The position numbers and the translations under genes are program-made. The notes beneath the pieces were generated by a model that saw only the letters and a program-made list of their open reading frames with translations, was not told the origin of the DNA and did not search any database. Of a stretch of 64,000 nt of DNA, positions 5,038 through 31,617 are shown piece by piece (position 1 is the first letter of the stretch; every line of letters starts with the position of its first letter). Source of the DNA: Bacillus marasmi (GTDB taxonomy: Bacteria; Bacillota; Bacilli; Bacillales; Cytobacillaceae); assembly GCF_902168435.1 (NCBI RefSeq), contig NZ_LR656175.1:91077-155076 (forward strand). Reading direction: 5' to 3'.

Positions 5038-5082
5038 GATTCTTCAATTGCACGTCAAAAAGACGCGCATAAAAGTATGCGC

Positions 5083-5173
5083 CACTTCCCTACGCAGGTA
5101 CGAACCTGTTCAGGTTTTGAGGGTTTAAAAGTAACTACTTTATTCTCAGCCCTTATCAAGGGATCCCCTAGTG
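5083..5173 (-). promoter_or_regulatory. TPP riboswitch (thi box)
   Basis: On the minus strand the conserved thi-box parts are in order: CTAGGGGATCCC (P1/P2 start), GGGCTGAGA, ACCCTC, AACCTGAACAGGTT, and the closing GCGTAGGGAAGTGG. CTGAGA and the final GCGTAGGGAAGTGG are diagnostic. A further hairpin (5065-5082) and the terminator at 5009-5037 follow before tenI, so thiamine pyrophosphate should stop transcription of the operon. Confidence 0.95.
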
Positions 5174-5181
5174 TTATTTAG

Positions 5182-8862: not shown

Positions 8863-9096
8863 TCAACCTCCGCTTACAGGTGGAATAAATGCAATAACAT
8901 CGCCAGCTTTGATTACTTCATCATTCGCGGCAAATTCTTCATTTACCGCCGTCATCACTGTATCGAGCTTTAACGTAGGATATTTCTCATTGATTAACGT
9001 TTTAGCCTCAGCAATTGTTTTTCCATCAAAATCGAAGCTGACGGATTCTTCGCCAACAGCGTCGCGGAGATGGGCAAAAAACATGACTTTATTCAT
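8863..9096 (-). CDS. moaD: Molybdopterin synthase small subunit MoaD
   Basis: 77-residue sulfur carrier for molybdopterin synthesis with a beta-grasp pattern and terminal PPVSGG; the Gly-Gly is thiocarboxylated. The start is the ATG at 9094-9096; longer versions into moaE would be out of keeping with the family. It overlaps the moaE end by 8 bp and lies 4 bp before moeB, so the whole MoaE-MoaD-MoeB activation set is consecutive. Confidence 0.93.
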   Translation of the reverse strand: MNKVMFFAHLRDAVGEESVSFDFDGKTIAEAKTLINEKYPTLKLDTVMTAVNEEFAANDEVIKAGDVIAFIPPVSGG

Positions 9097-9553
9097 GTAA
9101 ATCACCACTTTCTGGTTTCCCGGATGGATATGCGACGGTTTCGAGCTGGTTGCCAATCCACTCTTCGCCATCTTCCCAATGTTCTTTTTTCCAGATTGGG
9201 ACGATTTCTTTAATACGTTCAATCGCATAACGATTGGCATCATAGGCATCAGCTCGATGTGGAGTTGACACAGCAATCACGACCGCTATATCGGTAATTT
9301 CAAGTCGACCAACACGATGAGTAATGGCTACTTGTGCGCCTGGCCAACGTTCGTTAATTTCAGCACCAATTTGTTCTAACTTTTTCACAGCCATGGATTC
9401 GTAAGCGTCATAAATAAGGTAAAGCGTTTTTTTGCCCTTTGTGAGCTCGCGGACTGTACCGATGAACGTTGTAATTGCACCAGCGTCACGCTGAACTACT
9501 TTATCGATGATCGATTGAATATCAATTGGCTCTTTTGAAATAGCAAAGTTCAT
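9089..9553 (-). CDS. moaE: Molybdopterin synthase large subunit MoaE
   Basis: Catalytic subunit that inserts two sulfurs from MoaD into precursor Z. 154 residues, the usual length. Recognisable motifs are GAITTFIGTVR (about 25-35), HRVGRLEITDIAVVIAVS, HRADAYDANRYAIERIKE and PIWKKEHW, whose lysines form the active site. It follows the fused MoeA/PBP gene after 68 bp with GGTGACC before the ATG. moaA and moaC, needed upstream in the pathway, are not in the window. Confidence 0.94.
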   Translation of the reverse strand: MNFAISKEPIDIQSIIDKVVQRDAGAITTFIGTVRELTKGKKTLYLIYDAYESMAVKKLEQIGAEINERWPGAQVAITHRVGRLEITDIAVVIAVSTPHRADAYDANRYAIERIKEIVPIWKKEHWEDGEEWIGNQLETVAYPSGKPESGDLHE

Positions 9554-9621: not shown

Positions 9622-11547
9622 TTATGCATTAAAATAAATTGGCTCAGGGTTCACCTCTACTGTGTATCCACCAATTTTTTCTACTTCTTGTCTGAAGCTT
9701 TCACTGCCGATTACCTTAAGGAGCATTTGGCCTTGTTCACTTTCAAAAAACGCTCGTGACATCAGCAAATCATAAGACTCATCAGCAATAGCCTGGAAGT
9801 TTAGTCCCATTGCTTTTGCTGCAGGGTAAATACCTAAACCACAAGCCTGATCGTCACCTTTCACTTCGGCTGCGACAGCTAAATGGGAAAACATTTCACG
9901 CTCATATCCGGTAATATCATCTGCGGAAACGCTTGCTTGCTTGAGAAGCATATCAAACAGAATTCGCGTACCTGCCCCTTTTTGACGATTGACAAAATGA
10001 AGCTCTCTTTCAACTAATTCTTTCACATTCATGTTGTCTATATCACTATCTTTTGGTAGCATCCAGCCCTGGGTTCTTTTTAAAAATGGATATAGAACTA
10101 CGTTTTGACCAGCTAATAATTTCTTCACATAAGAAACATTATATTCGCGGGTCTCTGGATCTAATAAATGAATTCCTGCTACATGCGCTTCGCCTTTACG
10201 AATAGCCATAATTCCGGCCATGCTGCCAACATGTGCAGAGACGATTTTCATGTCGCTGCGTTCTTTTCTCAAGTTGGACGATAATAGGTCAATCGTTAAA
10301 TCATGACTTCCGGTGAAAAGCAAAGCATTTGTGATTTCCGAAAGCGGTCTTAATAGCTCGACTTCAGCCATATCACCTTGCTCATAGCCAATGACTTCAG
10401 AAGGAATGACCAAAAGCCCATCGGCTCGAACGTATGACATGGTTACCCCAGCCGCTCTTGTTAGCGGGTTAGCTACGTATTGACCATTCACATAACCAAT
10501 ATTCATTCTAATAAAGTCCTCTGCACCCATTGACGAAACAATGCGGCGACCAAGCTTTACTTCGATAGTTTGCCGCTTAGGCTCCGGTATTTGCAAATAC
10601 TTACAAATCAAAGGTCGGACGAACCACTCAAGGGCAAGATAGGCTGATACTGGATAACCTGGTACTCCGACAACGACCTTATTGTTAATTTCCGCTAAAA
10701 TAACCGGTTTTCCAGGGCGAGCAGCGACGCCATGGGTAAATACCGTTCCAAGCTCTTGTAAAATATGTACTGTATAATCCTTCGAACCAGCAGACGAACC
10801 AGCATTAATCACAACAATATCAGAGGTCTCAACAGCAGAAAGGAGCGCTTCCTTAATCTTTTCAGGCTGATCACGAACAATTGGGGATAGGATTGGCTCA
10901 CCACCCCACTCCTTTACAAAGCCTGAAAAAACCGTGCCATTAAATTCGATGATTTGTCCTGGTGCAGGTGTTGAATTTGGTGCCACAAGCTCATTACCAG
11001 TTGGAATGATAGTAACAAGCGGTTTTTTTGTTACGTTAACCTCTAAAATCCGCGAGGCGATTAGCACACCTAAATCCGCCGGTCGTAAAATATGGCCTTG
11101 TGGAAATAACATTTCCTCTTGCGTAACATCCTCACCAATTGGACGGATGTGCTGCCAAGGCGTGGCAGGCTCGATGATTTCGATTGTATGTTCATCGATT
11201 ACATGAACATGCTCTATCATGATGACGGCATTGAATGGTGAAGGTACCGCATTTCCCGTATCAACATAGGAAAACTGTTCACCTATCGTTAGATGGAGTG
11301 GATTTTGCTCATGGGCTGTATATGTATCTTCGGCACTTACCGCAATTCCATCCATAGCCGAAGCGTGGTAGTGTGGTACCGATACTTTTGCGAAGATGGG
11401 CTCAGCCGTTGCGCGTCCAAGTGCTTGATCTGTCGGAATGCTTTCTGTTACGATCGGCAAATTGAAAGCTGCTAGAATCTCTTCTTTTGCCTGATTTCGT
11501 GGTTTATCTTCTAAGTATATTTTGCGTTTATATCCGTTTCCTTCCAC
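9622..11547 (-). CDS. MoeA-like protein fused to a periplasmic-binding-protein-like domain
   Basis: 641 residues in two parts. Residues 1-400 are MoeA-like (molybdenum insertase) with SAMDGIAV, GEDV, INAGSSAGSKDY and GVPGYPVSAYLALE. Residues about 410-641 resemble a molybdate/LysR-type substrate-binding domain (TGSHDLTIDLLSS, SAHVGSMAGIMAIRKGEAHVAGIHLLDP, NRQKGAGTRILFDMLL). The binding domain has no signal peptide, so it would act in the cytosol, perhaps as a molybdate or tungstate sensor or donor (inference). The start is GTG after GGGGAG. It follows a stand-alone moeA by 15 bp. Confidence 0.88.
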   Translation of the reverse strand: MEGNGYKRKIYLEDKPRNQAKEEILAAFNLPIVTESIPTDQALGRATAEPIFAKVSVPHYHASAMDGIAVSAEDTYTAHEQNPLHLTIGEQFSYVDTGNAVPSPFNAVIMIEHVHVIDEHTIEIIEPATPWQHIRPIGEDVTQEEMLFPQGHILRPADLGVLIASRILEVNVTKKPLVTIIPTGNELVAPNSTPAPGQIIEFNGTVFSGFVKEWGGEPILSPIVRDQPEKIKEALLSAVETSDIVVINAGSSAGSKDYTVHILQELGTVFTHGVAARPGKPVILAEINNKVVVGVPGYPVSAYLALEWFVRPLICKYLQIPEPKRQTIEVKLGRRIVSSMGAEDFIRMNIGYVNGQYVANPLTRAAGVTMSYVRADGLLVIPSEVIGYEQGDMAEVELLRPLSEITNALLFTGSHDLTIDLLSSNLRKERSDMKIVSAHVGSMAGIMAIRKGEAHVAGIHLLDPETREYNVSYVKKLLAGQNVVLYPFLKRTQGWMLPKDSDIDNMNVKELVERELHFVNRQKGAGTRILFDMLLKQASVSADDITGYEREMFSHLAVAAEVKGDDQACGLGIYPAAKAMGLNFQAIADESYDLLMSRAFFESEQGQMLLKVIGSESFRQEVEKIGGYTVEVNPEPIYFNA

Positions 11548-11562: not shown

Positions 11563-12795
11563 CTATCTTGTTGGTAATACGGGCACATATTCCCCTTGGA
11601 AAATACCTTCCTTAACTGAAGCGACTTCAACTATTCCATCGCTCTTTACAAGAGTAGTAATTAAGCCAGATTTCCCAATGATCGGTTCAGCCCACCATTC
11701 TCCATCCTTCTCAAACAAACTGACGCGAATATAATCCGCTCGACCTGGAGCTGAGGCGATATTTTTCGTGATTTTTGCAAAGACTCGATCCGGTTGTTTC
11801 GTTAATTTTTCGCCTTTAAGTCTACGAAGAATACGTTCGCCGAATAATTGGAAAATAATCATCGCGGAGGCGGGATGACCTGGTAAGCCGATGACTGGTT
11901 TACCTGATGCAACGGAAAGAATCGTTGGTTTGCCAGGCTTAATTGAAATTCCGTGGACAAATACGCCTGGATTGCCCAAGGATTGAATCACCTCGGTTGT
12001 ATAATCCTTAGCCCCAACCGAGCTTCCTCCAGATAAAATTAAGCAGTCGACACGATCAAATAATTGTTTAGCCTGATTCGCAAATTGCGTGTAATCATCC
12101 TTCACAATTCCACCGTAAATACAATCAATATTCCAATTTTCCAGCATACCCGCAACCGTTAAGTAGTTAATATCGCGAATCTGACCTGTTTCTAACTTTT
12201 CTGTCTCGTATGGAACGATTTCATCGCCTGAGGAAAGATAGCCTACAGTTAGGCGACGGTACACTTTCACTTCAGTAATGCCCAAAGAGGCAAGAGCACC
12301 AAGCTCTTGTGGCCGAAGCTTTGTGCCTGCATCAAGAACAATAGCGCCAGACTTAATATCTTCGCCACGCTTGATGATATTTTCACCTGGGGCAATTTGC
12401 TTATATGTATTCAAAAGTCCATGGATATCCTCACAATGCTCAATCATAATGACAGCATCACTTCCAGGCGGAATCATTCCACCGGTTGGAACATAAATGG
12501 CTTCAGAACGGCCCACAGGCTTTGATGCTTCCTGACCCATATTAACTTCTCCAACGACATTTAAGAATCCTGGCATTGTTTCAGATGAACCATATGTATC
12601 CTTTGCACAAACAGCGTAACCGTCTACTGTGGAACGATCAAAGCCTGGTACGTCTTCGCTTGCTAGTACTGGCTCTGCAAGTACATAATGGAGGGCATCC
12701 TTAATCGGTCGAACTTCAGTATCATGAATACCATTAATCATCTCATCGATTAGGGAGAAGGTTTCCTCCACTGTTTTAACTTTGAAAAATTCCAT
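11563..12795 (-). CDS. moeA: Molybdopterin molybdenumtransferase MoeA
   Basis: Inserts molybdenum (or tungsten) into adenylated molybdopterin. 410 residues from the ATG at 12793-12795 (MEFFKVKTVEETF); an in-frame start at 12864 would overlap mobA and is less likely. Motifs: FDRSTVDGYAV (about 52-62), PTGGMIPPGSDAVIMIEH, LSGGSSVGAKDYT, HGISIKPGKPT and GLPGHPASAMI. Two consecutive moeA homologues are common where Mo and W enzymes or several oxidoreductase families are made. Confidence 0.93.
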   Translation of the reverse strand: MEFFKVKTVEETFSLIDEMINGIHDTEVRPIKDALHYVLAEPVLASEDVPGFDRSTVDGYAVCAKDTYGSSETMPGFLNVVGEVNMGQEASKPVGRSEAIYVPTGGMIPPGSDAVIMIEHCEDIHGLLNTYKQIAPGENIIKRGEDIKSGAIVLDAGTKLRPQELGALASLGITEVKVYRRLTVGYLSSGDEIVPYETEKLETGQIRDINYLTVAGMLENWNIDCIYGGIVKDDYTQFANQAKQLFDRVDCLILSGGSSVGAKDYTTEVIQSLGNPGVFVHGISIKPGKPTILSVASGKPVIGLPGHPASAMIIFQLFGERILRRLKGEKLTKQPDRVFAKITKNIASAPGRADYIRVSLFEKDGEWWAEPIIGKSGLITTLVKSDGIVEVASVKEGIFQGEYVPVLPTR

Positions 12796-12832
12796 TGTTC
12801 CTGTACATCCTTTCTCTGACGATGAAAAGAGG

Positions 12833-13432
12833 TTATTGTTCAGTGTCAGCCATCCTTTTGGCAACTTCGTACTCTTCTGGTCGATTCATATTGAAAAAAT
12901 ATTTATCTAATTGATGCTGGAGATGCTCCGGTAAATCAGCTTCCGTCATATATCGGACATTAAGCCGCTTCAATAATCCTCTAACAGTAAGCTCATTTTG
13001 AACTATACATGCTTCAATTTCGGCACAAATGCTCTTTCGATAAACAGCAAAAAGTGGTTGATGCTTTCCGTGAATAACCGGCAGCACCGCATCATAATTG
13101 TCTGTAGCATCTAGGAGATAGCTCCCCAATTCCATTGAAATAAATGGCATATCACAGGCAACAATTAAATTAACATCAAAGGACGAAGCCAATAAGCCCG
13201 CGTGGATTCCAGCAAGTGGTCCTTGGCCCGGATACACATCAGAAACCGTATTTAACTGTAAAAACTGATAGGTTTCTGGATTATTCGATACTAGGACAAT
13301 CTCAGAAACAAGCTTATCAAGTTCATCCTTAATCCGTTCAATATTTGGCTTTTGGTTTATTTTAAGGAGGGATTTGTTCGTTCCCATTCGGCTTGATTTT
13401 CCACCTGATAAAATAATGCCTCCTGCTTTCAT
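12833..13432 (-). CDS. mobA: Molybdenum cofactor guanylyltransferase MobA
   Basis: Attaches GMP to Mo-molybdopterin to give the bis-MGD cofactor used by formate dehydrogenase. 199 residues with the N-terminal nucleotide loop ILSGGKSSRMGTNKS at about 6-20, GPLAGIHAGL, and VACDMPF (metal-binding aspartate). The start is the ATG at 13430-13432, 6 bp after AGGTG; an upstream GTG at 13441 is less likely. Dependence of the exported FdnG on bis-MGD fits its place in this operon. Confidence 0.92.
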   Translation of the reverse strand: MKAGGIILSGGKSSRMGTNKSLLKINQKPNIERIKDELDKLVSEIVLVSNNPETYQFLQLNTVSDVYPGQGPLAGIHAGLLASSFDVNLIVACDMPFISMELGSYLLDATDNYDAVLPVIHGKHQPLFAVYRKSICAEIEACIVQNELTVRGLLKRLNVRYMTEADLPEHLQHQLDKYFFNMNRPEEYEVAKRMADTEQ

Positions 13433-13488
13433 GAACAGCACCTGCTTTTCTTTCTTTTACTATAACCTAAATAACATAAATACCATTA

Positions 13489-14322
13489 CTAATTTGTTTT
13501 ATCACCTTCTGGTTGATTACCAGTTGAGCTGTAACCTTTTTCTTGGGCAATATAATCAAGATGGATTGTCTTTAAGTCAAGTAACGTCGTTGATGGCTTT
13601 TCAAGATGTTGTCTAGTATCAATAACCTTAGTATAGCCTTTACATTTATCACAAACATGAATTTGTGAGGAAGAATCTCCTTCAATCGTTAGAAATTGAA
13701 TCGTACCATGATCTGTGTTTCCACAGTGTGAACAGGAAATTTTCTTATCTAACCAATATGCTAAGCAGCGCGGACAGTGTAACACTTTTTGGCCTTTTCC
13801 TTCGAGTTGACCAAGACGAACTGGTTCACCGCAAACAGGACAGCCACAACCTGGAACAGCTACTCCCTTTTCAGCCGCATTTATTCTTGGCTGAACTTTT
13901 TCAGCGATTAATTGTAAATACGGACGCAAGGCAGTCTCAGCTAAAAATTGCGGAAGCCATGGCTCCAAGCCATGTTGATTGGCATATTCTTGGAAATAAA
14001 TATGATTTAAGGCATATGCTTCTTCCAGCCATAAAACAGCAGTTTGTTCATCTAATAGCTTTGCTAATTTATCAAATTGCTCAGATAGCTGTGGGTTATT
14101 TTTTAATAATACGTCTTTTAGTTCATCTATCCACTGTACAAATAGTGCAATATCGAAATCAATCGCTGTAAAGGCGGCAATTGGTACGCCAGTTTCCATT
14201 ACTGCTTGATCATAATTTGGTCTAACTGAATCAGGGTTGAGTCCCTTTTTCCATTGCTCTTGAAGCTGGATGATTTCCTTTTGTAGATTTAAATATTCCT
14301 TTGATACCACAGATGTCTTCAT
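13489..14322 (-). CDS. fdhE: Formate dehydrogenase accessory protein FdhE
   Basis: Redox-type chaperone for respiratory formate dehydrogenases. 277 residues from the ATG at 14320-14322 with AGAGGTG upstream. The N-terminal half is helical. The C-terminal half has four CxxC pairs: CPVC, CPRC, CSHC and CDKC (rubredoxin-like metal sites). The position directly after the three structural genes supports a role in FdnGHI assembly. Confidence 0.92.
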   Translation of the reverse strand: MKTSVVSKEYLNLQKEIIQLQEQWKKGLNPDSVRPNYDQAVMETGVPIAAFTAIDFDIALFVQWIDELKDVLLKNNPQLSEQFDKLAKLLDEQTAVLWLEEAYALNHIYFQEYANQHGLEPWLPQFLAETALRPYLQLIAEKVQPRINAAEKGVAVPGCGCPVCGEPVRLGQLEGKGQKVLHCPRCLAYWLDKKISCSHCGNTDHGTIQFLTIEGDSSSQIHVCDKCKGYTKVIDTRQHLEKPSTTLLDLKTIHLDYIAQEKGYSSTGNQPEGDKTN

Positions 14323-14350
14323 GAGCTGCACCTCTTTCGTTTTTAAAGGG

Positions 14351-14416: not shown

Positions 14417-15136
14417 TTATGCGCCTTTAGATTTCTTGTCATCATCGTGGCCATGAAGTGGTACATCAGGGAAGTTACCCTTTCTTACTTCTTCATCATA
14501 CCAGTCAGTGTAGTGGCCCTTAGCCCACCATGCTGGTACTTTACCATCAACAATACCTCTGAATCCTGGTGATGAATGCTTGTGAACTGCTGCTAAATAA
14601 ATATGACCGACAACTACAGCAATCGCAAGACCCATACATGCACTATGAAGGAAGTAGCCCCACTGTACTGCCCATTGCGGGAAGAAATCAGGGAACCATA
14701 GTGTGAATCCTGATGCGATAATCATGATAGCAGTTAAAATTTGAATCCAAGAGTTAATCTTTTCACCTGCGTTAAAGAATGATTGTGGCACATGCTTAAA
14801 CTTAAGACCCACAAGTTCCTTAACTGTTTCTTGGAACCACTGAAGATCACGTTTTTTCCAAGTAACGATATCTTTGAACCAACGGAATAATCCTTTACGG
14901 TCAAAAATAAACCAAATGAATGTCGGAGTGATGAAGACGACTGCAAAAATACGGTGCAATAGTCTTGCCATTTCCGGTCCACCTAAAACTGGATAAAGCC
15001 AGTCAAAGAACTCTGTATACATTGGTAAGGCCGTTATATACAAAATGAAGAACGAAATGAAATTGATATTATGGGCCCAAACAAACGCCAACGAGAAGCG
15101 TCTTACTTTAACCTCTGGCTGATTTGGTTTACTCAT
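14417..15136 (-). CDS. fdnI: Formate dehydrogenase cytochrome b subunit (gamma)
   Basis: Membrane subunit that passes electrons from the iron-sulfur subunit to quinone. 239 residues with about four membrane helices (near 20-40, 58-78, 125-145 and 160-180) and histidines placed in or next to them (VWAHNINF, LLHRIF, YFLHSACM, VVGHIYLAAVHKH) as haem b ligands. The start is the ATG at 15134-15136 after GGAGGTGATAGCC, overlapping the end of fdnH by 8 bp. The C-terminus is charged and histidine/aspartate rich. Confidence 0.92.
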   Translation of the reverse strand: MSKPNQPEVKVRRFSLAFVWAHNINFISFFILYITALPMYTEFFDWLYPVLGGPEMARLLHRIFAVVFITPTFIWFIFDRKGLFRWFKDIVTWKKRDLQWFQETVKELVGLKFKHVPQSFFNAGEKINSWIQILTAIMIIASGFTLWFPDFFPQWAVQWGYFLHSACMGLAIAVVVGHIYLAAVHKHSSPGFRGIVDGKVPAWWAKGHYTDWYDEEVRKGNFPDVPLHGHDDDKKSKGA

Positions 15137-15953
15137 GGCTATCACCTCCAGCATCATGTCCTTTGTCTTTGTTAAATAATCTATAGGACACTGCTAATCC
15201 AAGAACACCCATTGTAGTTGCACCAATCATCATCTTACCAAGTGGTTGTGCGTAATCTTTCCAAAGTACTGCAGATGTTGGTACTTTTGGTTTTTCAGGC
15301 AGGCCGTAAACGGATGGCTTTTCAGCTAACACGTAGATTGTGTTTGTTCCGCCAACACCTTCTGGATTATAGATCATTGCGTTAGGATAACGGTCTTTAA
15401 TTTGACTTAAGCGTTTTTCTGCTTTAGCAATCATTTCGCTTCTTTCACCAAATTCAAGTGCTCCCGGATGGCAAGTCGTTACACAAGCTGGCTGCATACC
15501 TTCTTCGATACGGTCTGTACACATTGTACATTTTGAAGCCTTACGGTATTCCTTACCTTCTTTATCCTTGTAAGTTGCTAATGAGATAACATCAAACGGA
15601 CAGTTTTGTACGCAATAGCCACAGCCTACACACTTTTCGTGGTCAACTACAACTGTGCCGTATTTTGAGTAAGTGATTGCATCTTCAGGACAAACTTTTT
15701 CACATGCTGCCTCTTTACAGTGGAAACATGCAGAATGACGGAATAGGTAGTCTAAATTGCCTTTTGTGTTTTCATGCTCGATAAATTCGATTACATTCCA
15801 AGTATGCGCAGTAACCTTTGCATGAGATTGATTACTTCCTAGGAACTCCTCTGGCTCAGCCGGAAGGTCATTCCAGTTTTTACAAGCAACCATACAGGCA
15901 CGGCAACCATCACATTTCGTAACATCGACTAATTTTGTATATTCTTTAGCCAT
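15129..15953 (-). CDS. fdnH: Formate dehydrogenase iron-sulfur subunit (beta)
   Basis: Electron-transfer subunit with four [4Fe-4S] clusters. 274 residues. Cysteine groups: CDGCRACMVACKNW (about 14-27), CFHCKEAACEKVCPED, CVGCGYCVQNCPFD, and CTMC with CVTTC. A single C-terminal membrane anchor is predicted near 240-260 (MMIGATTMGVLGLAVSYRLF). Its start shares bases with the fdnG stop. The layout matches E. coli FdnH. Confidence 0.96.
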   Translation of the reverse strand: MAKEYTKLVDVTKCDGCRACMVACKNWNDLPAEPEEFLGSNQSHAKVTAHTWNVIEFIEHENTKGNLDYLFRHSACFHCKEAACEKVCPEDAITYSKYGTVVVDHEKCVGCGYCVQNCPFDVISLATYKDKEGKEYRKASKCTMCTDRIEEGMQPACVTTCHPGALEFGERSEMIAKAEKRLSQIKDRYPNAMIYNPEGVGGTNTIYVLAEKPSVYGLPEKPKVPTSAVLWKDYAQPLGKMMIGATTMGVLGLAVSYRLFNKDKGHDAGGDSHE

Positions 15954-18940
15954 TATTTTGCCCTCCTAACATCGCAAAGGAATGCTTTATATTCTGGGAT
16001 GTTTGTATTGGCGTCCCCAATATGCGGTGTTAAGTGGTTCGCTGTTCCGCCAGTTGCGATTCCCTTGAAACCAAAGTGCCAAGGCATACCAACTTGGTGA
16101 ACAGTTTTACCTTTAACCTTAAACGGCTTAAAGCGCTTTGTAACCATTGCGTATGCTTTAATTTCACCGCGAGCAGATGAGATAATAACTTCATCTTTAT
16201 TTTTGATGCCCTTTTCACTTGCAAGTTGTTCGCCAATTTCCACGAACATATGTGGTGCTAATTCAGATAACCATGCTTGGTTACGTGTCATCGCTCCTGC
16301 CTGCCAGTGTTCAGACACACGATATGTTGAAGCAATGATTGGGTATTTAGAAGCATCACCTTGTGTCATGAACTCCTTCTCACCAAACTTAGTAGCAGGG
16401 TTCAATTGAACACTTGAGAATGCATTTGAAACTGGAGTTTCATATGGTTCATAGTGTTCAGGGAATGGACCTTCATTCATTGGTGCAAATAATCCACCTA
16501 ATCCAGTCGCATTCATAAAGTATGCATCTTTTCCTCCAGGTGCTTCAGGACCACGATCTTTCGGGAAGTCTGGTACGTCTTTACCAACCCAAGCGTTTTG
16601 TGCTCCATCCCACCAGATTACATCTTGGTTATTTTCTTTAGACCATGGAGTACCATCTGGTTTAGCAGAACAACGATTGTAAAGGACACGACGGTTTGCA
16701 GGCCAAGCAAATGACCAGTTTAGATAGTTACCATTTCCTGTATCTTTATTATCACGACGCTGTGATAAGTTTTTGCCTTCTTCTGGATAGAATCCGGAAT
16801 AAATCCAGCAACCACTTGCAGTAGAACCATCAGCCATTAGCTTAGCAAATCCAGGTACTAACTTCTTCGTTGCTGTCTCGTAACCATTAATTTCACGTGC
16901 AACTAAATCGATATCAATATGATGTCCTTCACCATATTCCCATGTCATAGCATTCATTGATGCTGCTGCTGGTGTCGATTCATTTTTATAAAGCTCTTTT
17001 AATTTAATTGCCAATAGGTGGATAATTTCTAAGTCACCTAATGATTCACCCTTTGGCTCAATTGCTTTCCAACGATACTGCATCCAACGGCCAGAGTTAG
17101 AAATTGATCCTTCTTTTTCAAATGATGAACATGCAGGTAGGAAGAATACTTCTGTATCAATCTCACTTGGATTAACACCAGCTTCCTTCTGCCAGAATGC
17201 GCTAGTCTCTGTTTCCCATAAGTCTACAGCGACCATCCATTTAAGATTGCTTAGCGCTTCATGTTCCTTACCTGAGTTTGGTCCACCAACAATTGGGTTT
17301 GTACCAAACATGAGTAAACCTTCGATTTCACCTCTAGACATCGCATCGAAAATTCTCATATGTGTGTAATCTTTCTTCGGTGTTAACTTAGGTAACCAGT
17401 GGTAACCAAATTCATTAGCACTTGTTGCGTTATCACCATAGAAAGCTTTTAACATACTTGTGTAGAACTTAGGCTTGTTTGTCCAGTAACCTGCTGCAGG
17501 TGTTACTTTCTTTAAGAAACCTTCGTAAGTTGCTTCTTCAGGAGTAGAAGTCGGAACTTCCATATATCCTGGGACATTGTTATATAATAAACCAAAGTCT
17601 GTAGAGCCTTGTACGTTTGATTCACCACGTAACGCATTGATTCCGCCGCCTTGTAAACCGATGTTTCCAAGTAGCAATTGAAGAATCCCGTATGAACGAA
17701 CGTTTTGTGAACCAACTGTATGCTGAGTTGTGCCCATCGCATACATAATTGTTCCGGCTTTACCTGGCTTACCAGTTTCAGCAAATGCCTTCACTACATT
17801 TAAGTAGTCTTCCTTTGGTGTACCAGTTACTTCTACAACTTTTTCAATCGTATAACGTGAGTAGTGCTTTTTCAGTTGTTGGAACACACAGCGTGGATCT
17901 TGAAGTGTAGTATCGCGTATAAACTTACCTTCTGCATCCTTCTTGAATGTCCACTTAGATTTATCATAGCTTCTTGTTTTCTCATCATAACCATTGAAAA
18001 TACCATCATCATAAGAGAAGTCATCTGTAACGATTAAAGAAGCATTAGTATAATAACGAACATATTCTTCATGATATAGCTTGTTTTCTAAAATATAGTT
18101 AATCATCCCGCCAAGGAATGCAATATCTGAACCAGAACGAAGTGGGGCATAAATATCTGCTTGGCTAGATGTTCTTGTAAATCTTGGGTCTACTGAAATG
18201 ATTTTTGCACCACGTTCTTTTGCTTGCGTTAACCATCTAAAGCTAATTGGATGGTTTTCTGCTGGGTTTGCACCCATGATTAGTGCGCAATCAGTATTTT
18301 TCAAGTCAACCCAGTGGTTTGTCATCGCGCCACGACCAACTGTAGGTGCCAGACCGGCAACCGTAGAGCTGTGTCATATCCGGGCCTGATGCTCAAGATA
18401 GGTTAACCCTAATCCCGCACGCATCAATTTACTTAGGATGTAAACTTCCTCATTATCTAGAGCTGCTCCACCCATGCTGGCAATTGCTTCTACTTTATTT
18501 GCAGGCATGCCATTTTCAGTTGCGATAAATTTACGATCGCGTGTATCTTTCACTTTCTTTGCAATTTGTTCAATTGCCCAGTCCCAATCGACCTCTTTCC
18601 ACTTATCAGCACCAGGTGCACGATACAAAGGTTTCTCTACACGCTTGTCTGATGTGAAAATTTGACGAACAGTTGTACCTTTACTACATAGGGTTCCTTC
18701 GTTGATCGGATTGTCTGGGTCCCCTTCTGTGTAAACTACGTCTTTCTCATTGGCATAAACCAAGATTCCGCAGCCTACTCCACAGAATGGACAAATGGTT
18801 GGTGTTGGTTTTAATGCTGCAATCTTAAATTCTTTTGTGCTTGCTTTGGCCTTTTTATCATCGAAGCCAAGTTCGACTACGGCCATCGTAATCGCTGTAG
18901 CACCAGACAACTTCAAAAATTGCCTTCTTGTAAAATCCAT
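15953..18940 (-). CDS. fdnG: Selenocysteine formate dehydrogenase catalytic subunit (UGA readthrough)
   Basis: Oxidises formate at a bis-MGD site outside the membrane. 995 residues from the ATG at 18938-18940 (AGAGGGGGCAGAAAT upstream). A twin-arginine signal, TRRQFLKLSGA, lies at about 4-14, followed by the [4Fe-4S] motif CPFCGVGC plus TLCSKG. An in-frame TGA at 18374-18376 occupies residue 189 in QARI-U-HSSTVAGLAPT; E. coli FdnG has ARV-U-HGPTVA at its selenocysteine. The frame continues unchanged for 806 codons, and a SECIS-like hairpin follows. A normal gene finder would call two genes. Selenocysteine genes (selA, selB, selC, selD) must lie elsewhere. Confidence 0.95.
18330..18376 (-). 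promoter_or_regulatory. Bacterial SECIS element after UGA of fdnG
   Basis: In RNA sense the UGA is followed after 11 nt by GGUUGCCGGUCUGGCACC (18345-18362). The arms pair with one bulged U and present a GGUCU loop. In the E. coli fdhF SECIS, GGUUGC-AGGUCU-GCACC begins at the same 11-nt distance and has the same bulged U and GGUCU. This one has one extra C-G pair. Confidence 0.9.
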
Positions 18941-18987: not shown

Positions 18988-19752
18988 TTAATAGGAAGAA
19001 CCCCCGACTTTCAATTCGACGAGATCATTGTTGACCCTACCAAAGGAAGTGTAGGCAATCGCCATTTTTCCTCTTAAATAGCCAATAAGCTCGATATTTA
19101 AATATTTGGCAAGTTGAACTGCTTGCTTTGTCGCAGCTGTTCGTGAGCCAATAACAGCAAAGCCATATTTAGCTGCCTTTGACAGCATTTCGTATGAAAC
19201 TCTACCAGTTGTTAATAGTATTAATTTCTGCGGGTCAAGGTGATTTCGCAGTGCATAGCCGATGATTTTATCGACTGCATTATGGCGACCGATGTCCTCA
19301 CGTACTGCGATGCTCCCATCCTCATGGACGATGCAAGCACCATGCATGCCGCCCGACTCTAAATACAACGGCGACTCCTGCGCGAATTGACTCCGCTTTT
19401 TTAATAGATAGCTTAATTGATAGGTTTGTTGTGAATTCACTTTGTCAAAGCTTTTGACATCGGTCATTGAAAAGAAGGTTACTCCTCTTCCGCAACCAGC
19501 AGTATAGTGTTTCTTTTTCGTGAAAAACACTTCACTATCAAACGCCTCGCTCAAAGTCACATGGATTGTACCCATATCTTCATTCACGCTAACCCCAAGC
19601 ACATCTTCAACCTTATCTATTAATCCTTCTGAAAATAAATATCCATAAGCCCAATCTACTAGATCCATATTCGTTAATTGAAAAACAGCGATTTCATAAC
19701 CATTTACAATCAATGAAATTGGATATTCATCAGGACAGCCTTTTCTATTCAT
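18988..19752 (-). CDS. fdhD: Formate dehydrogenase sulfurtransferase FdhD
   Basis: Transfers sulfur to the molybdenum cofactor of formate dehydrogenase. 254 residues from the ATG at 19750-19752 (AAAGGGGTGAAGTT before it). Motifs: CPDEYPISLIVNG, AVREDIGRHNAVDKIIG, TTGRVSYEM and IGSRTAATKQAVQLA. The conserved loop reads AGCGRG, i.e. CxxG, where E. coli FdhD has a CxxC pair, so only the first cysteine remains. First gene of the operon, 48 bp before fdnG, with an FNR-type promoter upstream. Confidence 0.93.
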   Translation of the reverse strand: MNRKGCPDEYPISLIVNGYEIAVFQLTNMDLVDWAYGYLFSEGLIDKVEDVLGVSVNEDMGTIHVTLSEAFDSEVFFTKKKHYTAGCGRGVTFFSMTDVKSFDKVNSQQTYQLSYLLKKRSQFAQESPLYLESGGMHGACIVHEDGSIAVREDIGRHNAVDKIIGYALRNHLDPQKLILLTTGRVSYEMLSKAAKYGFAVIGSRTAATKQAVQLAKYLNIELIGYLRGKMAIAYTSFGRVNNDLVELKVGGSSY

Positions 19753-19806
19753 AACTTCACCCCTTTTAGGTCCATAACACCGACGGGATTTGCTGATTTG
19801 GTTTCC

Positions 19807-19856
19807 CTTTACCATCATAGAGATTAGCAAGTAATCTGACTGCGACAAAAGTCACA
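19807..19856 (-). promoter_or_regulatory. FNR-type class II promoter of the fdh operon
   Basis: On the minus strand TGTGA-CTTTTG-TCGCA (19841-19856) differs from TGTGA-N6-TCACA at one base. A -10 hexamer TATGAT (19819-19814) begins 29.5 bp after the palindrome centre, predicting initiation near 19807 and a centre at -41.5. Confidence 0.75.
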
Positions 19857-24513: not shown

Positions 24514-24563
24514 TGTGAACTACGTCACAATACGAGAATGGCATGCGCGTTAAGATGATTCAT
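24514..24563 (+). promoter_or_regulatory. Consensus FNR box and promoter of the nos operon
   Basis: TGTGA-ACTACG-TCACA (24514-24529) is a perfect match. TAAGAT (24551-24556) is placed so that the box is centred at -41.5 from a start near 24563. This puts the first in-frame ATG (24543) upstream of the transcript and supports the TTG start at 24591. Confidence 0.85.
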
Positions 24564-24590
24564 GTAATTAAGTCTAGGGGGGAAAACAAC

Positions 24591-25046
24591 TTGAAAAAAG
24601 CGACTATCTATTTTCTTATTAGTGCCTTAATCGGACTTGGCATAGGATATCTTGTTTTTGATGTCATGTTGGGCAAAAACAGCCAAACGGATGCGATAGC
24701 AAGCTCTGACACGAGTTCGGAGGAATCAAGTAGTACAACTGATGCAACGACGGAAGAATCTAAAGGTACAGAAACGGCTGTATCAGCTGAGGCTGAGATC
24801 CTTAACCAAAAAGGATGCCTTGGATGCCACGCTGTTTCATCACTAGATTTAAGCGGTGGTGCAACAGGTCCTGACCTTTCTCAAGCATTTAATAATGTCG
24901 AAGGAAAGCATGGTAAACCTGTTAACGAATTCTTAAAAGAACCAACTTCAGCAGTTATGTCTGGGGTAATTAGCGGAAGTCCATTATCAGATGATGAAAT
25001 CTCTAAAATAACTGAATTGCTACAAAAAGCAGCAGAAGCAAACTAA
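24591..25046 (+). CDS. Membrane-anchored cytochrome c of the nos operon (NosC-like)
   Basis: One-haem c-type cytochrome, probably the electron donor to NosZ. 151 residues from TTG at 24591, which follows AGGGGGG and lies downstream of the predicted transcription start. An N-terminal membrane anchor (about 4-25) is followed by a Ser/Thr/Glu-rich linker (residues 30-75), then the haem motif CLGCH near 85-89 and ATGPDLSQAF. A methionine in SAVMSGV can act as sixth ligand. It is encoded 23 bp before nosZ, as in Gram-positive nos clusters. Confidence 0.88.
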   Translation: MKKATIYFLISALIGLGIGYLVFDVMLGKNSQTDAIASSDTSSEESSSTTDATTEESKGTETAVSAEAEILNQKGCLGCHAVSSLDLSGGATGPDLSQAFNNVEGKHGKPVNEFLKEPTSAVMSGVISGSPLSDDEISKITELLQKAAEAN

Positions 25047-25069
25047 ATCAATAAGGTGGTGCTTTATAG

Positions 25070-26938
25070 ATGAAAAGTTGGATCCCAATCTCAAGCGGGT
25101 TAGTTGCAGGATTGTTAGCGGCAACCGTATTTTTTGGAGATTTTACTTCAGGAGCTAAAACTGAAACAGCATCGAATGACAATAAATCAAACGCAGAAAA
25201 AGTTTATGTCCCATTTGGTGAAAAAGACGAATATTATTTAATGGCATCAGGTGGACACTCTGGTCAAATGTTTGTTTACGGTGTTCCTTCCATGCGTAAA
25301 ATTAGAACGATTCCAGTATTCTCACCAGATTCTGCAACAGGCTATGGTTTTGATGAACATTCTAAAGAAATGCTAGGCGATTACACTTGGGGCGACCTCC
25401 ATCACCCAGCAATATCTGAAACAAATGGGGAATACGATGGGAAGTACCTTTTCGCTACAGACGTAGCCAATAGCCGTGCAGCAGTCGTAAACTTAGAAAC
25501 TTTTACAACGAAAGATATTATTAATGTACCGAATACAAGCGGTCCACACTGTGCGGCCTTTGTTACGGAAAACACTGAATATATGTTCCTACCTACTCGC
25601 TTTGCAGTGCCAATTGGTAGTGAGTATGCAAGCTTAGATGATTATAGCGATAAATATCGCGGCGTTATGTCCGCTGTAACGTTTAATGAAGAGAAAGAAG
25701 AATTAAATATTGCTTATCAGGTGGCACTTCCACCTTGGTCATATGACTTATCAGATGCAGGTAAAAAGATTTCTAAAGATTGGGCAGTTATGACCACATA
25801 CAATACTGAAGAGGCGACAACAAATCTTGAAATTAACGCATCTCAAGCTGACCGTGACTATATCGTTCTTTTTAACTGGAAAGAGCTTGAAGAAAAAGTT
25901 GCTAAAGGTGAATATGATAATGTTACTGGGCAAAAAATGATTTTCCCTGAAAAGCATAAAGGCGGAATTTATCTTGTACCAGTTGCAAAATCTCCACACG
26001 GTGTTGATGTAACTCCGGATGGAAAATACTTTATCGCTTCTGGAAAATTAGCACCGGCAATGACCGTCTTCTCTTTTGAAAAAGCATTTGAAGCAATTGA
26101 AAAAGGTCAATTTGACGGTGAAAGAAACGGTATTCCAGTTCTAAAATATGATTCAGTAATGGAACGTGAAGTTGACCCAGAAAACGCACTTGGACCACTT
26201 CATACGCAATTCGATGATAAAGGTATGGCTTACACAACAATGTTTATCTCTTCTGAGATAGTTAAATGGGATCCTAAGACTGGTGAAACTTTAGACCGTG
26301 TTCCGGTACAATACTCACCAGGTCACGCTGCTGCTGCAGAGGGTGATACAGCTACTCCTGATGGTAAATATATCGTTGCACTTAATAAAATTGCCAAGGA
26401 TTCCTATTTATCAGTAGGTCCATCTCATCCAGAATCAATGCAGTTAATTGACTTAGCAGGTTCAAAAATGAAAGTAATTCAATCTGCACCAGTAGATCCT
26501 GAACCACACTATGCTCAGATGATTAAAGCTGACAAAATCAAAACGATTTCTGTATATCCAAAAAATGAAAATAATAAGCTAGCCGTTTATAAGCAAGAGG
26601 ATGCACGAATTGAACGGAAAGGAAATGAAGTTCACGTATACGGTATTGCAATGCGTTCTAAGTTTATCTTTGACGCAAAAGCAAAACGTCCTGATGCTAT
26701 TGAAGTAAATCAAGGAGATAAAGTATTCATACACTTAACTAATATCGACCTTGATCAGGATATTACTCATGGATTTGGTATCAACCAATATGACTTAAAT
26801 ATGGAAGTCCAGCCTGGTCAAACCAATACATTGGCCTTTACCGCAGATAAAGCGGGTACCTACCCACTTTACTGTACGAACTTCTGCTCAGCATTACACC
26901 AAGAAATGTCAGGATATCTTTTAGTAAAACCACAATAA
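25070..26938 (+). CDS. nosZ: Nitrous oxide reductase NosZ, clade II
   Basis: Reduces N2O to N2 outside the membrane. 622 residues with a Sec-type N-terminus (no twin arginine; hydrophobic stretch about 8-24), which marks clade II. A beta-propeller with the CuZ histidines follows (DLHHP, GPHCAAF, SPHGVDV, SPGHAAA, PEPHYAQ). A C-terminal cupredoxin domain has the CuA ligands in CTNFCSALHQEM (C-x3-C-x3-H-x2-M) and DITHGFGI. GGTGGTG precedes ATG. It is followed by its membrane and maturation genes. Confidence 0.97.
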   Translation: MKSWIPISSGLVAGLLAATVFFGDFTSGAKTETASNDNKSNAEKVYVPFGEKDEYYLMASGGHSGQMFVYGVPSMRKIRTIPVFSPDSATGYGFDEHSKEMLGDYTWGDLHHPAISETNGEYDGKYLFATDVANSRAAVVNLETFTTKDIINVPNTSGPHCAAFVTENTEYMFLPTRFAVPIGSEYASLDDYSDKYRGVMSAVTFNEEKEELNIAYQVALPPWSYDLSDAGKKISKDWAVMTTYNTEEATTNLEINASQADRDYIVLFNWKELEEKVAKGEYDNVTGQKMIFPEKHKGGIYLVPVAKSPHGVDVTPDGKYFIASGKLAPAMTVFSFEKAFEAIEKGQFDGERNGIPVLKYDSVMEREVDPENALGPLHTQFDDKGMAYTTMFISSEIVKWDPKTGETLDRVPVQYSPGHAAAAEGDTATPDGKYIVALNKIAKDSYLSVGPSHPESMQLIDLAGSKMKVIQSAPVDPEPHYAQMIKADKIKTISVYPKNENNKLAVYKQEDARIERKGNEVHVYGIAMRSKFIFDAKAKRPDAIEVNQGDKVFIHLTNIDLDQDITHGFGINQYDLNMEVQPGQTNTLAFTADKAGTYPLYCTNFCSALHQEMSGYLLVKPQ

Positions 26939-26951
26939 GCATGAATAAAGC

Positions 26952-27077
26952 AAAGAGGCTGGCTTAAAACTATTAAGGTTAGACCATCAAACTGCGAATT
27001 CAAACAATGGCTCAAAGTAGTCATAGAATTCCTGTTTTGCTGGAACACCCAAAATAGCTAAACCAGCCTCTTTTTCT
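26952..27077 (+). terminator. Long-range hairpin after nosZ
   Basis: AAGAGGCTGG (about 26953) pairs with CCAGCCTCTT (about 27063) across a loop of about 90 nt and is followed by a T run. It may act as a partial terminator or protect the nosZ mRNA, leaving the accessory genes at a lower level. Confidence 0.55.
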
Positions 27078-27123
27078 TTCTGTTACAAAATACGTAGGAT
27101 TGATGAAAGAAGGCGCGTTTACG

Positions 27124-27690
27124 ATGAACGGAAAAAAACTTTCACTATTTTCTAGTCTAATGATTGCGATTTCTGCTTTACTGATTGCCTCATCACTATT
27201 TTTCCCATGGTGGAAAATGGAATTCTTTGCACCTCAATATCCAGAGGGATTAAACATCGTCGTTTATCCTGATAAGCTGGAAGGCGAAATTGATAATATC
27301 AATGCCTTAAACCATTATATTGGTATGAATAAATTTAGCGAGGAGAGTTTCCCTGAGCTACAATACTTAACTTATTTAATCGGTGGTTTAGCTGTCATTG
27401 TCTTATCAGCTGCACTAATTAGAAAGAAATCGTATTTATACGGAACAATCATCCTTTTTGCCGTAGGTGGTGCAGTCGGCGTTTGGGATTTACGACGTTG
27501 GCTCGTGAGCTTCGGTACAGACCTTGACCCAAAAGCACCAATTACAATGGATCCGTTCGTACCACCGATTATTGGTGAAAATATCGTTGCAAATTTCACG
27601 ACCTACAGCTTATTGCAAACAGGCTCTTATCTGATTGTCGCTGCATTCATTTTGATTTTAATTCCGCTATGGAAGGACCGACAAAGATGA
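27124..27690 (+). CDS. nosB: NosB-like membrane protein
   Basis: Integral membrane protein of 188 residues with about four helices (near 8-28, 78-95, 103-120 and 160-180) and an extracytoplasmic loop (SLFFPWWKMEFFAPQYPEG). Clade II nos clusters usually place such a protein, called NosB, between nosZ and nosD; its job is not known. The start chosen is the ATG at 27124 after AGAAGGCG; an ATG at 27103 is an alternative. Its stop overlaps the nosD start (ATGA). Confidence 0.75.
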   Translation: MNGKKLSLFSSLMIAISALLIASSLFFPWWKMEFFAPQYPEGLNIVVYPDKLEGEIDNINALNHYIGMNKFSEESFPELQYLTYLIGGLAVIVLSAALIRKKSYLYGTIILFAVGGAVGVWDLRRWLVSFGTDLDPKAPITMDPFVPPIIGENIVANFTTYSLLQTGSYLIVAAFILILIPLWKDRQR

Positions 27691-29030
27691 CAAAAACTCT
27701 GCTCCTCCTCATGTTCAGTTCAATATTGATGATTGCCATGCCGCAGGAAAGCACTGCTGCTGAAAATTTGCAGGCTATGATTGATTCTGCTGAGGAGGGA
27801 GCAGTTCTCCAGCTTGATAATAGGACGTATGAAGGAAATATCGTGATTGATAAAGAGATTCAAATCATCGGGAATAAGAAAACCATTATTAAAGGGGACG
27901 GTACAGGGAATGTCATCTCTGTGACCGCTCCAAATGTAACTTTGCGGAATTTAACTGTCACAAACGGCAGCATGAACCGCAATTCTGCTGAGGAATATGC
28001 AGCAATTAAGCTATATAGTAATGGGAATACCGTTGATCACATCGCTGTTACTGATTCATTCCATGGCATTTATCTAAGCCAGTCCCATCATAATACGATA
28101 GAAAACTCTAACATAACGGGGCATGGTTACGGCATCATTGCTAAACAGGGCAATGGCTTACATATTTATTACTCGAATGATAATCTCTTGAAAAATAATA
28201 TCGTAACAGGAACGCGCGACGGCATGTATTTTGATTATGCCAATAACAATAAAATTGTCGGAAACAAATTAAGCGAAACGCGATACGGTCTGCATTTCAT
28301 GTATTCAAATGAGAATGATTTCCAAGGAAATACGTTTACGTTTAATACCGGTGGCGCGGCCATAATGGAATCGAACGGAAATAAGCTCAATAACAACGAT
28401 TTTATCTTTAATTATGGTCACAAGTCTTTCGGGTTATTTTTACTCTCGGCGATTGATACGGAAATCACCAACAATACCTTTATCCTCAATCAGCGCGGAC
28501 TGTATATTGACCAATCAACCAATAATTTAATAAAAAACAATACGATTATTCGTAATCAAATTGGGGTCGAGCTCTGGGCCAGCTCCAATGATCAAACCTT
28601 TACGTTAAATAATATTTCGGAAAATACGATTCCGGTGTTCGCGCTTGGTGGCCAAGGGCGTAACTACTGGACAAAGGACAATCAGGGAAATAACTGGGGG
28701 AATGAATTCCCTGTTCTCGACTTAAATCAAGACGGACTTGGCGATCAGACAGTAGCCTACCAATCGTCTTTGTATGAGCTTATCGAGGATCAGGAATTGA
28801 CTTATTTATTTTTAAAAAGCCCTGCGATAGGAATTTATGAAAAAATCAATCAGTTCTTCAACCAATCAAAAACCATGTTTGAGGATTCCGCGCCACTGGT
28901 CGTGCATGATGAATCAACCGGACGATGGCCTTGGTTTCTAGCTGCAGCTATCGTTATACTAGCGGTTATTTTACTAAAAGGGAGATATCCACTATGCATT
29001 ATATTTGGAAGGAATGGAAGGAAAACATAA
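27687..29030 (+). CDS. nosD: Copper-site maturation protein NosD (first copy)
   Basis: Extracytoplasmic right-handed parallel beta-helix protein that partners the NosFY ABC transporter in CuZ assembly. 447 residues: signal peptide 1-25 (ending STAA), repeated N/D/G-rich coils typical of the NosD/CASH fold (NNKIVGNKLSETRYGLHF, NNLIKNNTI), then a C-terminal membrane helix near 415-435. The start is the ATG at 27687, coupled to the nosB stop. A second nosD is at 52719-54011. Confidence 0.93.
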   Translation: MTKTLLLLMFSSILMIAMPQESTAAENLQAMIDSAEEGAVLQLDNRTYEGNIVIDKEIQIIGNKKTIIKGDGTGNVISVTAPNVTLRNLTVTNGSMNRNSAEEYAAIKLYSNGNTVDHIAVTDSFHGIYLSQSHHNTIENSNITGHGYGIIAKQGNGLHIYYSNDNLLKNNIVTGTRDGMYFDYANNNKIVGNKLSETRYGLHFMYSNENDFQGNTFTFNTGGAAIMESNGNKLNNNDFIFNYGHKSFGLFLLSAIDTEITNNTFILNQRGLYIDQSTNNLIKNNTIIRNQIGVELWASSNDQTFTLNNISENTIPVFALGGQGRNYWTKDNQGNNWGNEFPVLDLNQDGLGDQTVAYQSSLYELIEDQELTYLFLKSPAIGIYEKINQFFNQSKTMFEDSAPLVVHDESTGRWPWFLAAAIVILAVILLKGRYPLCIIFGRNGRKT

Positions 29031-29791
29031 GGGGAAAAGGCTTTTGGCTCTCACTTGGAATTATTGTGCTTGTTTCTACTAGTTTATTGTTCAATGCTTC
29101 CACTCTTTCCTTTGAGCAAGGCTTTTATGTACTATTAATCAATTTATTTGATGCTTTTATTTACTTCATACCGATCCTTTGTTTATTTTTGGGTGCCTTT
29201 GCGATTTTTCAAGAAAAAGAACAGAAAACACTCATCATGCTCCTGACGCGACGCGATGACTTTAAAAGCTTTCTATTGAGAAAAAGCTTGGCTATCCACC
29301 TTTGCCTACTCGGACCAATTATCATTTGGTTTTTAGTGTACCTGTTACCGTTAAAATTTTTATTTGAGCTCGATTTTGCCAGCTATCTTTCGTTTTTAAT
29401 CTCGCTCATTTGTATCGTGATTATTTTCGGCCAGATCGGGATGCTAATAGGCAGTATTAGCCGCTCAAAAATGCAAATTGTCGGGGCAACAATTGCTGTT
29501 TGGTTTTACTTTTTCTTTTTACATGACTTTATTCTGCTTTCATTTCTTGCTGATGTTACATATGAGAATGTTAAATGGTTTTCTAGCATTTATTTTCTTA
29601 ATCCTCTCCAAGCTGCACGTGTCTTTTTGGAATCGTCGCTTGGTGTATACTCCTTTGACCATATGTCAAAGCTTTTACAATCATTTATTTGGCTAAAACC
29701 AGGGCTATTTTTACTCATTAACGCCACCCTGTTAATGTTACTTTCTTATCTTAGCGCAGTCTTGTTCCATCGGAAGGAGGGCGTAGAATGA
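28994..29791 (+). CDS. nosY: ABC transporter permease NosY (first copy)
   Basis: Six-helix permease of the NosDFY complex, 265 residues. The start is the ATG at 28994 (MHYIWKEWKEN), overlapping the end of nosD by 37 bp; GGGAGATATCC precedes it. Typical NosY segments are an N-terminal cytosolic helix, FLGAFAIFQEKEQKTLIMLLTRR after the second helix, and LNPLQAARVFLESSLG before the last helix. Its stop is overlapped by nosF. Confidence 0.92.
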   Translation: MHYIWKEWKENIRGKGFWLSLGIIVLVSTSLLFNASTLSFEQGFYVLLINLFDAFIYFIPILCLFLGAFAIFQEKEQKTLIMLLTRRDDFKSFLLRKSLAIHLCLLGPIIIWFLVYLLPLKFLFELDFASYLSFLISLICIVIIFGQIGMLIGSISRSKMQIVGATIAVWFYFFFLHDFILLSFLADVTYENVKWFSSIYFLNPLQAARVFLESSLGVYSFDHMSKLLQSFIWLKPGLFLLINATLLMLLSYLSAVLFHRKEGVE

Positions 29792-30411
29792 TTGAAGTAA
29801 AAAATCTTTATCAATCCTTTGGAAATAAACAAGTATTAGACGATGTAAATATGGTGATTGAAAAAAATGAAATAACCGCACTCGTCGGCCGTAATGGCGC
29901 TGGCAAATCAACGCTCATTAATAGCCTGCTGGGATTACTCCCTATCAAAAAAGGGAAGATTAATATCAAAGGAAAAATCAGCTATCTTCCTGAAAAATTT
30001 ATGCTTTATCCTGCATTAACTGGAATGGAAAACATGCAATTTTTTGCTGAGGCTATCGATAAAAAAGCTGACGCAGAGCGCATAGAGGAGCTTTTGCGAT
30101 CGGTAAGGCTCTGGGACGATCGGGATATGCAGATAAAGGGCTATTCAAAAGGGATGCTTCAACGGCTCGGGCTCGCCATTACGCTTTACCAAAATAGCGA
30201 AATCCTGATCTTGGATGAGCCAACCAGCGGAATCGATCCAATCGGTCGCAAGGAAATCCTCGAGGTTTTGAGATCACTGACTGATAAAACGATTTTGCTT
30301 TCCTCTCATCATCTTGATGAAATTAAACAAATTTGTACGCATGTTGCGTTTCTAGAAAACAATAAACTTGAGAAATATACGGTTGAACAATTTCTACAAA
30401 TGAACGGCTAG
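29788..30411 (+). CDS. nosF: ABC transporter ATPase NosF (first copy)
   Basis: ATPase of the NosFY transporter, 207 residues, on the short side for an ABC subunit. Walker A GRNGAGKST (about 34-42), signature YSKGMLQRLGLA, Walker B ILILDEPTSGID and the switch SSHHLDE are intact. The start overlaps nosY (ATGA). The deletion relative to the usual ~300-residue NosF is at the C-terminus. Confidence 0.93.
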   Translation: MIEVKNLYQSFGNKQVLDDVNMVIEKNEITALVGRNGAGKSTLINSLLGLLPIKKGKINIKGKISYLPEKFMLYPALTGMENMQFFAEAIDKKADAERIEELLRSVRLWDDRDMQIKGYSKGMLQRLGLAITLYQNSEILILDEPTSGIDPIGRKEILEVLRSLTDKTILLSSHHLDEIKQICTHVAFLENNKLEKYTVEQFLQMNG

Positions 30412-30424
30412 GAGGGCAATCCCT

Positions 30425-31336: not shown

Positions 31337-31351
31337 GATCTCAGCCATTTG

Positions 31352-31531: not shown

Positions 31532-31550
31532 TCAAACTCATCATTCACAA

Positions 31551-31617
31551 AGTGAGTGATTACTCACTTTACAAATCACTCTTTTTATTTTATTATCTAA
31601 GTGAGTGATTACTCACT
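31551..31617 (+). promoter_or_regulatory. Exporter promoter flanked by two TetR operators
   Basis: The same 18-bp palindrome AGTGAGTGATTACTCACT lies at 31551-31568 and 31600-31617. Between them TTTACA (31568-31573) and TATTAT (31591-31596) form a promoter with a 17-bp spacer. Operators cover both the -35 edge and the start site, as expected for repression by the TetR gene at 33488. Confidence 0.88.

Follow-up and report, generated by a model that had tools for sequence, protein, structure and literature searches.

A formate dehydrogenase gene with an in-frame TGA in Bacillus marasmi: a predicted selenoprotein of known type from a lineage in which selenocysteine is common

Introduction

The 64,000-nucleotide stretch of Bacillus marasmi DNA analyzed here (the window) contains a formate dehydrogenase alpha subunit gene that appears to be broken by an in-frame TGA, raising the question whether the gene has decayed or whether this codon is read as selenocysteine (Sec). 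A preliminary description of the locus favored the latter and attributed the Sel machinery to the organism, regarding selenoprotein formate dehydrogenases as unusual in Bacillaceae and Bacillus subtilis as devoid of selenocysteine decoding. A survey from 2006 gave a count of three selenoproteins for Firmicutes/Bacillales (PMC1794560), and selA was reported in two Aneurinibacillus species, there placed in Paenibacillaceae (PMC7996765); the passages of PMC1242214 that we read did not mention Bacillus selenoproteins. Among the papers listed by our searches, the sole paper joining selenocysteine, Bacillaceae and formate dehydrogenase was one on Moorella, and no selenocysteine formate dehydrogenase was named for Neobacillus, Mesobacillus or Cytobacillus, although one may already have been published. 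Our analysis indicates that the apparently stop-broken gene most likely encodes a formate-oxidizing enzyme with selenocysteine at the TGA.

Results

The alpha subunit gene and its TGA codon

15953..18940, minus strand: fdhA/fdnG-like formate dehydrogenase-N alpha subunit gene, 995 aa, predicted Sec at residue 189 (TIGR01553)
18374..18376, minus strand: TGA codon, inferred selenocysteine, residue 189, context ARI-U-HSSTVAG
18321..18379, minus strand: SECIS element covering the TGA, Rfam RF01989 SECIS_3, apical GCC-GGUCU-GGC

The reading frame extends on the minus strand from an ATG at 18940, with a GAGGGGG stretch just before it, to the stop at 15953, and the TGA at 18374-18376 is its sole interruption. 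Under the standard code the gene is read as two ORFs of 199 and 790 aa, both of them pieces of one protein, which matched TIGR01553 (formate dehydrogenase-N alpha) over residues 4-992 with 1283.5 bits (curated cut-off 814.2). The Fe4S4, Molybdopterin and dinucleotide-binding domains (PF04879, PF00384 and PF01568) each scored above their own cut-offs, and close to the N-terminus the sequence TRRQFLK is similar to a twin-arginine signal, with a Pfam TAT_signal score of 20.3 bits, below the cut-off of 22.7.

Homologues have Cys or Sec at the site of the TGA. Residue 189 aligns with residue ~192 (hand count) of the PDB chain 'Formate dehydrogenase, alpha subunit, selenocysteine-containing', printed there as C, the letter that alignment tools use for Sec, and the site reads TGACACGGACCAACGGTAGCAAGT, i.e. 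U-HGPTVAS, in an Escherichia homologue (L103). The preliminary description had located the codon correctly; the TGA lies at the catalytic Sec position and is the single break in a 995-residue TIGR01553 match. Its comparison with the U-HGPTVAS motif of E. coli is borne out by the Escherichia sequence. Of the 30 close family copies whose codon was read (L024-L028 and L128-L152), 28 have TGA, a recurrence that, like the SECIS match on the codon, goes beyond chance; the more distant paralogues outside that count (L029-L043) had three TGA and 11 TGT codons, with one sequence not covering the site. From the genome_contigs set, 80 loci were fetched, all but two of which (L070 and L086) cover the site, and these 78 comprised 76 TGA, one TGT and one TGC.

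The SECIS element

Scanning the window at the Rfam gathering thresholds yielded two matches, a TPP riboswitch and SECIS_3, the latter lying exactly on the TGA with 63.6 bits (E 1.7e-12) and thus only just above the gathering score of 63. In a genome-wide SECIS_3 search (E 0.001), the window site was the only match among the 150 of 455 first-look candidates that were scored; the statement of a single SECIS_3 in the genome holds within these 150.

Codon usage downstream of the TGA points in the same direction. In the 28 TGA-bearing family copies, whose members are related, 5 of 12 four-fold third bases at codons 190-208 were invariant, compared with 0 of 159 elsewhere in the gene (Fisher p 7e-7), and the invariant bases belong to five consecutive codons, 193-197; a larger set of 52 copies counts some genomes twice (L044/L130 and L045/L129 have identical scores), and the result rests on the 28-copy set. 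In an alignment of 19 SECIS segments, the Rfam helix was paired in 73.4% of cells vs 34-47% after a shift of one to three columns, and the covariation score of 0.249 exceeded all 500 shuffles as well as the shifted versions. Two of five pairing measures were not clearly above shuffles (double-change pairs, 85/500 as high; further pair types, 32/500), and four Rfam pairs were mostly broken, being unpaired in 11 to 15 of the 19 sequences. The folding energy of the window's segment was no better than that of shuffles (z -0.88). Support for the SECIS element comes from the comparative evidence, and none from folding energy alone.

Selenocysteine machinery of the genome

The genome is a 4.64 Mb draft of 46 contigs that is listed as 100% complete. 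Matches above the curated cut-offs were obtained for selA (562.3 bits) and selD (392.5 bits), both on contig C33, for selB on C29 (361.5 bits) and for tRNA-Sec (selC) on C13 (62.2 bits), whose anticodon was assigned as TCA by ARAGORN. The B. subtilis control gave no selA match and no tRNA-Sec match at E 1e-8, in accordance with the earlier assertion that this species lacks selenocysteine decoding. The tRNA-Sec model is not perfectly specific, because Caulobacter vibrioides, Thermus composti and Thermotoga maritima, three controls that gave no selA match, also scored above its cut-off. The preliminary description had named absence of selB or selC as evidence against Sec; selA, selB, selD and tRNA-Sec were all found, and this check does not refute Sec. 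The predicted decoding of UGA by this organism is backed by the four genes over their cut-offs together with the SECIS element.

Other UGA-containing genes in the genome

L124:5178-5411 = C33:148677-148910, minus strand: SelW-like (Rdx) ORF, 78 residues, motif CMMU (PF10262, 78.2 bits)
L153:4213-6306 = C35:88212-90305, minus strand: second formate dehydrogenase alpha, 697 aa (TIGR01591, 808.8 bits)

At least three further genes of the genome have an in-frame TGA at a Cys/Sec site. In selD this codon is at C33:149095-149097, where the gene reads AG-U-GCK. The SelW-like ORF sits between selA and selD and is split by its TGA under the standard code; it was found in four of the five genomes of the genus, with one TGA each time. 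SelW-like proteins with a CxxU motif are listed as a prokaryotic selenoprotein family (PMC9312934). In the second formate dehydrogenase, a TGA at the equivalent site is followed shortly by GTCGCCGGTCTGGCGAC, and its apical GCCGGTCTGGC is identical to the apical sequence of the window's SECIS element. The SECIS elements of these three genes are only putative, because an Rfam scan of their loci (L153 and L124) down to E 0.5 gave no SECIS model match. Folding energy lent no support either (z scores: second formate dehydrogenase -1.71, selD -1.11, SelW-like gene -0.51).

Sec versus Cys in formate dehydrogenase and SelD

The two close family copies with Cys at the alpha site have TGC in G010 (L133, G010:C159) and TGT in G184 (L138, G184:C60), and in both genomes a second copy with one TGA is present, so that Sec and Cys versions form a natural pair. 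Both Cys copies are devoid of the apical SECIS signature. They form one clade (SH-aLRT 99), to which 18 Sec rows are sister and outside which lie more Sec rows, in a quick tree with long outgroup branches of which only the placement of these two copies was used. The preliminary description had reasoned that relatives carrying TGC/TGT in the absence of a SECIS element would speak against Sec: such copies do exist and their apical element is lost, but they are extra copies placed within the Sec group.

SelD behaves in a parallel manner. Eight family genomes have selD without selA, and all seven of those read at selD encode Cys (six TGC, one TGT), the eighth genome being G174. These seven are the top-scoring selD matches and contain no stop, and their genomes lack both selA and tRNA-Sec (G192 by elimination). 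The other selD matches, among those listed, contain one TGA each; TGA was likewise found in selD of 3/3 relatives read that have both selA and tRNA-Sec. The Sec residue and the machinery thus co-vary, the pattern expected from selenocysteine decoding.

Distribution in genus, family and order

All five genomes of the genus, B. marasmi included, carry the alpha enzyme with one TGA. Within the family, which includes Neobacillus (the N. drentensis match has the coordinates of the copy in family genome G106), selA and a tRNA-Sec match were each obtained in 172 of 193 genomes and selD in 180, and selA was present in 181 of the 397 genomes of the order sample. The alpha enzyme or a near paralogue was matched at E 1e-150 in 121 of the 193 family genomes, a count that includes G027, with a sole copy of 48% identity, as well as G101, G069 and G179, which have partial copies. 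All but two of these 121 genomes have selA, the exceptions being assemblies of 80-81% completeness, and enzyme and selA co-occur with a Fisher p of 1.4e-7 in a test uncorrected for phylogeny, in which G192 was placed by elimination among the genomes without selA and tRNA-Sec. Conversely, 53 of the 172 selA-bearing genomes gave no match to the alpha enzyme at E 1e-150.

TGA-containing formate dehydrogenases of Neobacillus, Mesobacillus, Cytobacillus, Evansella, Salipaludibacillus and Bacillus canaveralius share ~60-75% identity, the same TGA and a closely similar SECIS element with the window's enzyme, sequence divergence being the only difference seen. The genus, family and order counts together with these named homologues therefore identify the alpha enzyme as common among the relatives of B. 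marasmi. The view of the preliminary description that such enzymes are unusual in Bacillaceae is unsupported, because selA is found in 172/193 family and 181/397 order-sample genomes; the enzyme itself is matched in 121/193.

Two records stood out during this survey. In G089 (C1:4542246-4545210), the homologue consists of two overlapping pieces with one TGA inside each, and the selA score of this genome is below that of its genus mates; it is perhaps a genome losing the trait. The formate dehydrogenase in record L094 (JAGGQZ010000031.1), titled Chryseobacterium sp. ISL-80, is almost identical to the Cytobacillus oceanisediminis enzyme, and the record may be mislabeled or contaminated.

Neighboring genes

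18988..19848, minus strand: fdhD accessory sulfurtransferase (TIGR00129, 166.8 bits, above cut-off 140.9), given as the ORF as listed; the true start may be further inside
15129..15953, minus strand: formate dehydrogenase beta (4Fe-4S) subunit (TIGR01582, 227.2 bits, below cut-off 334.7; Fer4 domains)
14417..15157, minus strand: formate dehydrogenase gamma (cytochrome b) subunit (TIGR01583, 95.4 bits, below cut-off 115.85; PF01292 above cut-off)
13489..14331, minus strand: FdhE-like formate dehydrogenase accessory protein (TIGR01562, 44.2 bits, below cut-off 187.65)
12833..13441, minus strand: mobA-like molybdenum cofactor guanylyltransferase (all matches below cut-offs; TIGR02665, 105.6 of 151.85 bits)
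11563..12864, minus strand: moeA-like molybdopterin molybdotransferase (all matches below cut-offs; NF011068, 403.5 of 534 bits)
9622..11547, minus strand: second MoeA-like molybdopterin biosynthesis protein with a longer C-terminal end (NF011068, 710.3 bits, above cut-off 534)
9089..9553, minus strand: moaE-like molybdopterin synthase subunit (95.2 bits, below cut-off)
25070-26938: nitrous-oxide reductase NosZ, of the type exported by the Sec secretion pathway (TIGR04246, 907 bits)

The alpha gene lies in a run of minus-strand genes from ~19.8 to 9.1 kb, in the order fdhD, alpha, beta, cytochrome b, FdhE-like, MobA-like, two MoeA-like and MoaE-like, several of whose names rest on below-cut-off matches. 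For the beta and gamma genes that adjoin alpha, FDH-beta and FDH-gamma were the top-scoring families, with both scores below the NCBIfam cut-offs.

Discussion

We consider it nearly certain (probability about 97%) that the locus encodes an intact, membrane-anchored respiratory formate dehydrogenase of the three-subunit FdnGHI/FdhABC type, predicted from its sequence to contain Sec at residue 189. What we show directly is the gene itself, its match to the SECIS model, a full complement of Sec genes and the conservation; the steps of its synthesis and function follow from what is typical of the protein families involved. SelB with Sec-tRNA would bind the SECIS hairpin that begins at the UGA and thereby insert Sec at residue 189, which in turn would ligate the molybdenum or tungsten of the bis-MGD cofactor, while FdhD, FdhE and the products of the adjacent cofactor genes would mature the enzyme. 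Formate is most likely oxidized at the outer face of the membrane, to which the enzyme would be exported as family members are, and electrons would pass from the beta to the cytochrome b subunit and on to the quinone pool.

Other explanations of the TGA fare poorly. Near-cognate readthrough of UGA occurs in bacteria, and a near-cognate or suppressor tRNA (Trp or Cys) could in principle take the place of Sec-tRNA here; nothing specific favors this, and such a mechanism neither accounts for the presence of a SECIS element and of all four Sec genes nor predicts that both Cys copies lack the apical sequence or that SelD carries Cys in the seven machinery-less genomes read. On these grounds we rejected it as very improbable. 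A true nonsense mutation that leaves a pseudogene or a truncated protein would agree with the two ORFs obtained under the standard code. Yet the frame is otherwise open across 995 codons, the TGA is kept in 28/30 close family copies and 76/78 covering genome_contigs loci, and the genome has the Sec machinery in addition to the SECIS element; codon conservation and SECIS speak so strongly against decay of the gene that we discarded this idea as extremely improbable. The draft state of the genome, with its 46 contigs, might finally invite the suspicion that a TGC or TGT codon was misread in sequencing or assembly. Four other genomes of the genus have TGA at the site, as do homologues in records from many other organisms, and an error shared by independent genomes is so implausible that we dismissed it as practically negligible.

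Among known systems, the best solved matches were the Sec-containing alpha subunits of PDB 9qm0, 8cm4, 6sdr and others (query residues 1-993, 1032.5 bits, Cys/Sec in register), which we take to be Desulfovibrio-type FdhAB. Enzymes of the FdhAB type are soluble two-subunit enzymes of a diderm, whereas here a predicted cytochrome b subunit gene comes after the beta gene. In this latter respect the locus resembles E. coli FdnGHI (PDB 1kqf), with which it shares the family model, a full-length match and, as predicted from its neighbors, the alpha-beta-gamma gene order, although the score is lower (952.2 vs 1032.5 bits for 9qm0) and the SECIS letters differ from those in the window. The homologue from Escherichia sp. 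(L103) has its TGA at the same site at ~44% identity.

The alpha gene product is thus a well-supported predicted selenoprotein of known type, from a lineage with common use of selenocysteine, and should be annotated as one 995-residue selenoprotein instead of two fragments. The finding is real but not exceptional, since many of the bacterium's relatives do likewise; with the enzyme type already known, what makes it of interest is that it corrects the notion of selenocysteine as rare in this group. B. subtilis, without a selA match, is a poor guide to a family with selA in 172 of 193 genomes. One may go further and regard selenocysteine decoding as an old and common trait of this spore-forming order that was lost repeatedly, with SelD and formate dehydrogenase turning from Sec to Cys or vanishing alongside, a scenario for and against which we see even odds. 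If true, genera that mix species with and without decoding would represent a natural experiment on keeping versus losing selenocysteine. The Sec/Cys difference in SelD and the Cys paralogues of the alpha enzyme offer ready comparisons for the costs and benefits of selenium.

The window also contains a NosZ-type reductase gene (25070-26938), and denitrification may therefore take up formate electrons. This gene is part of a nitrous-oxide reductase region on the plus strand (24543-32373), in which NosZ and NosD were assigned by family match, and a small CxxCH-motif gene as well as ABC transporter genes by eye from the ORFs. The TPP riboswitch, at 5070-5179 on the minus strand, lies upstream of what by eye appear to be thiamine genes.
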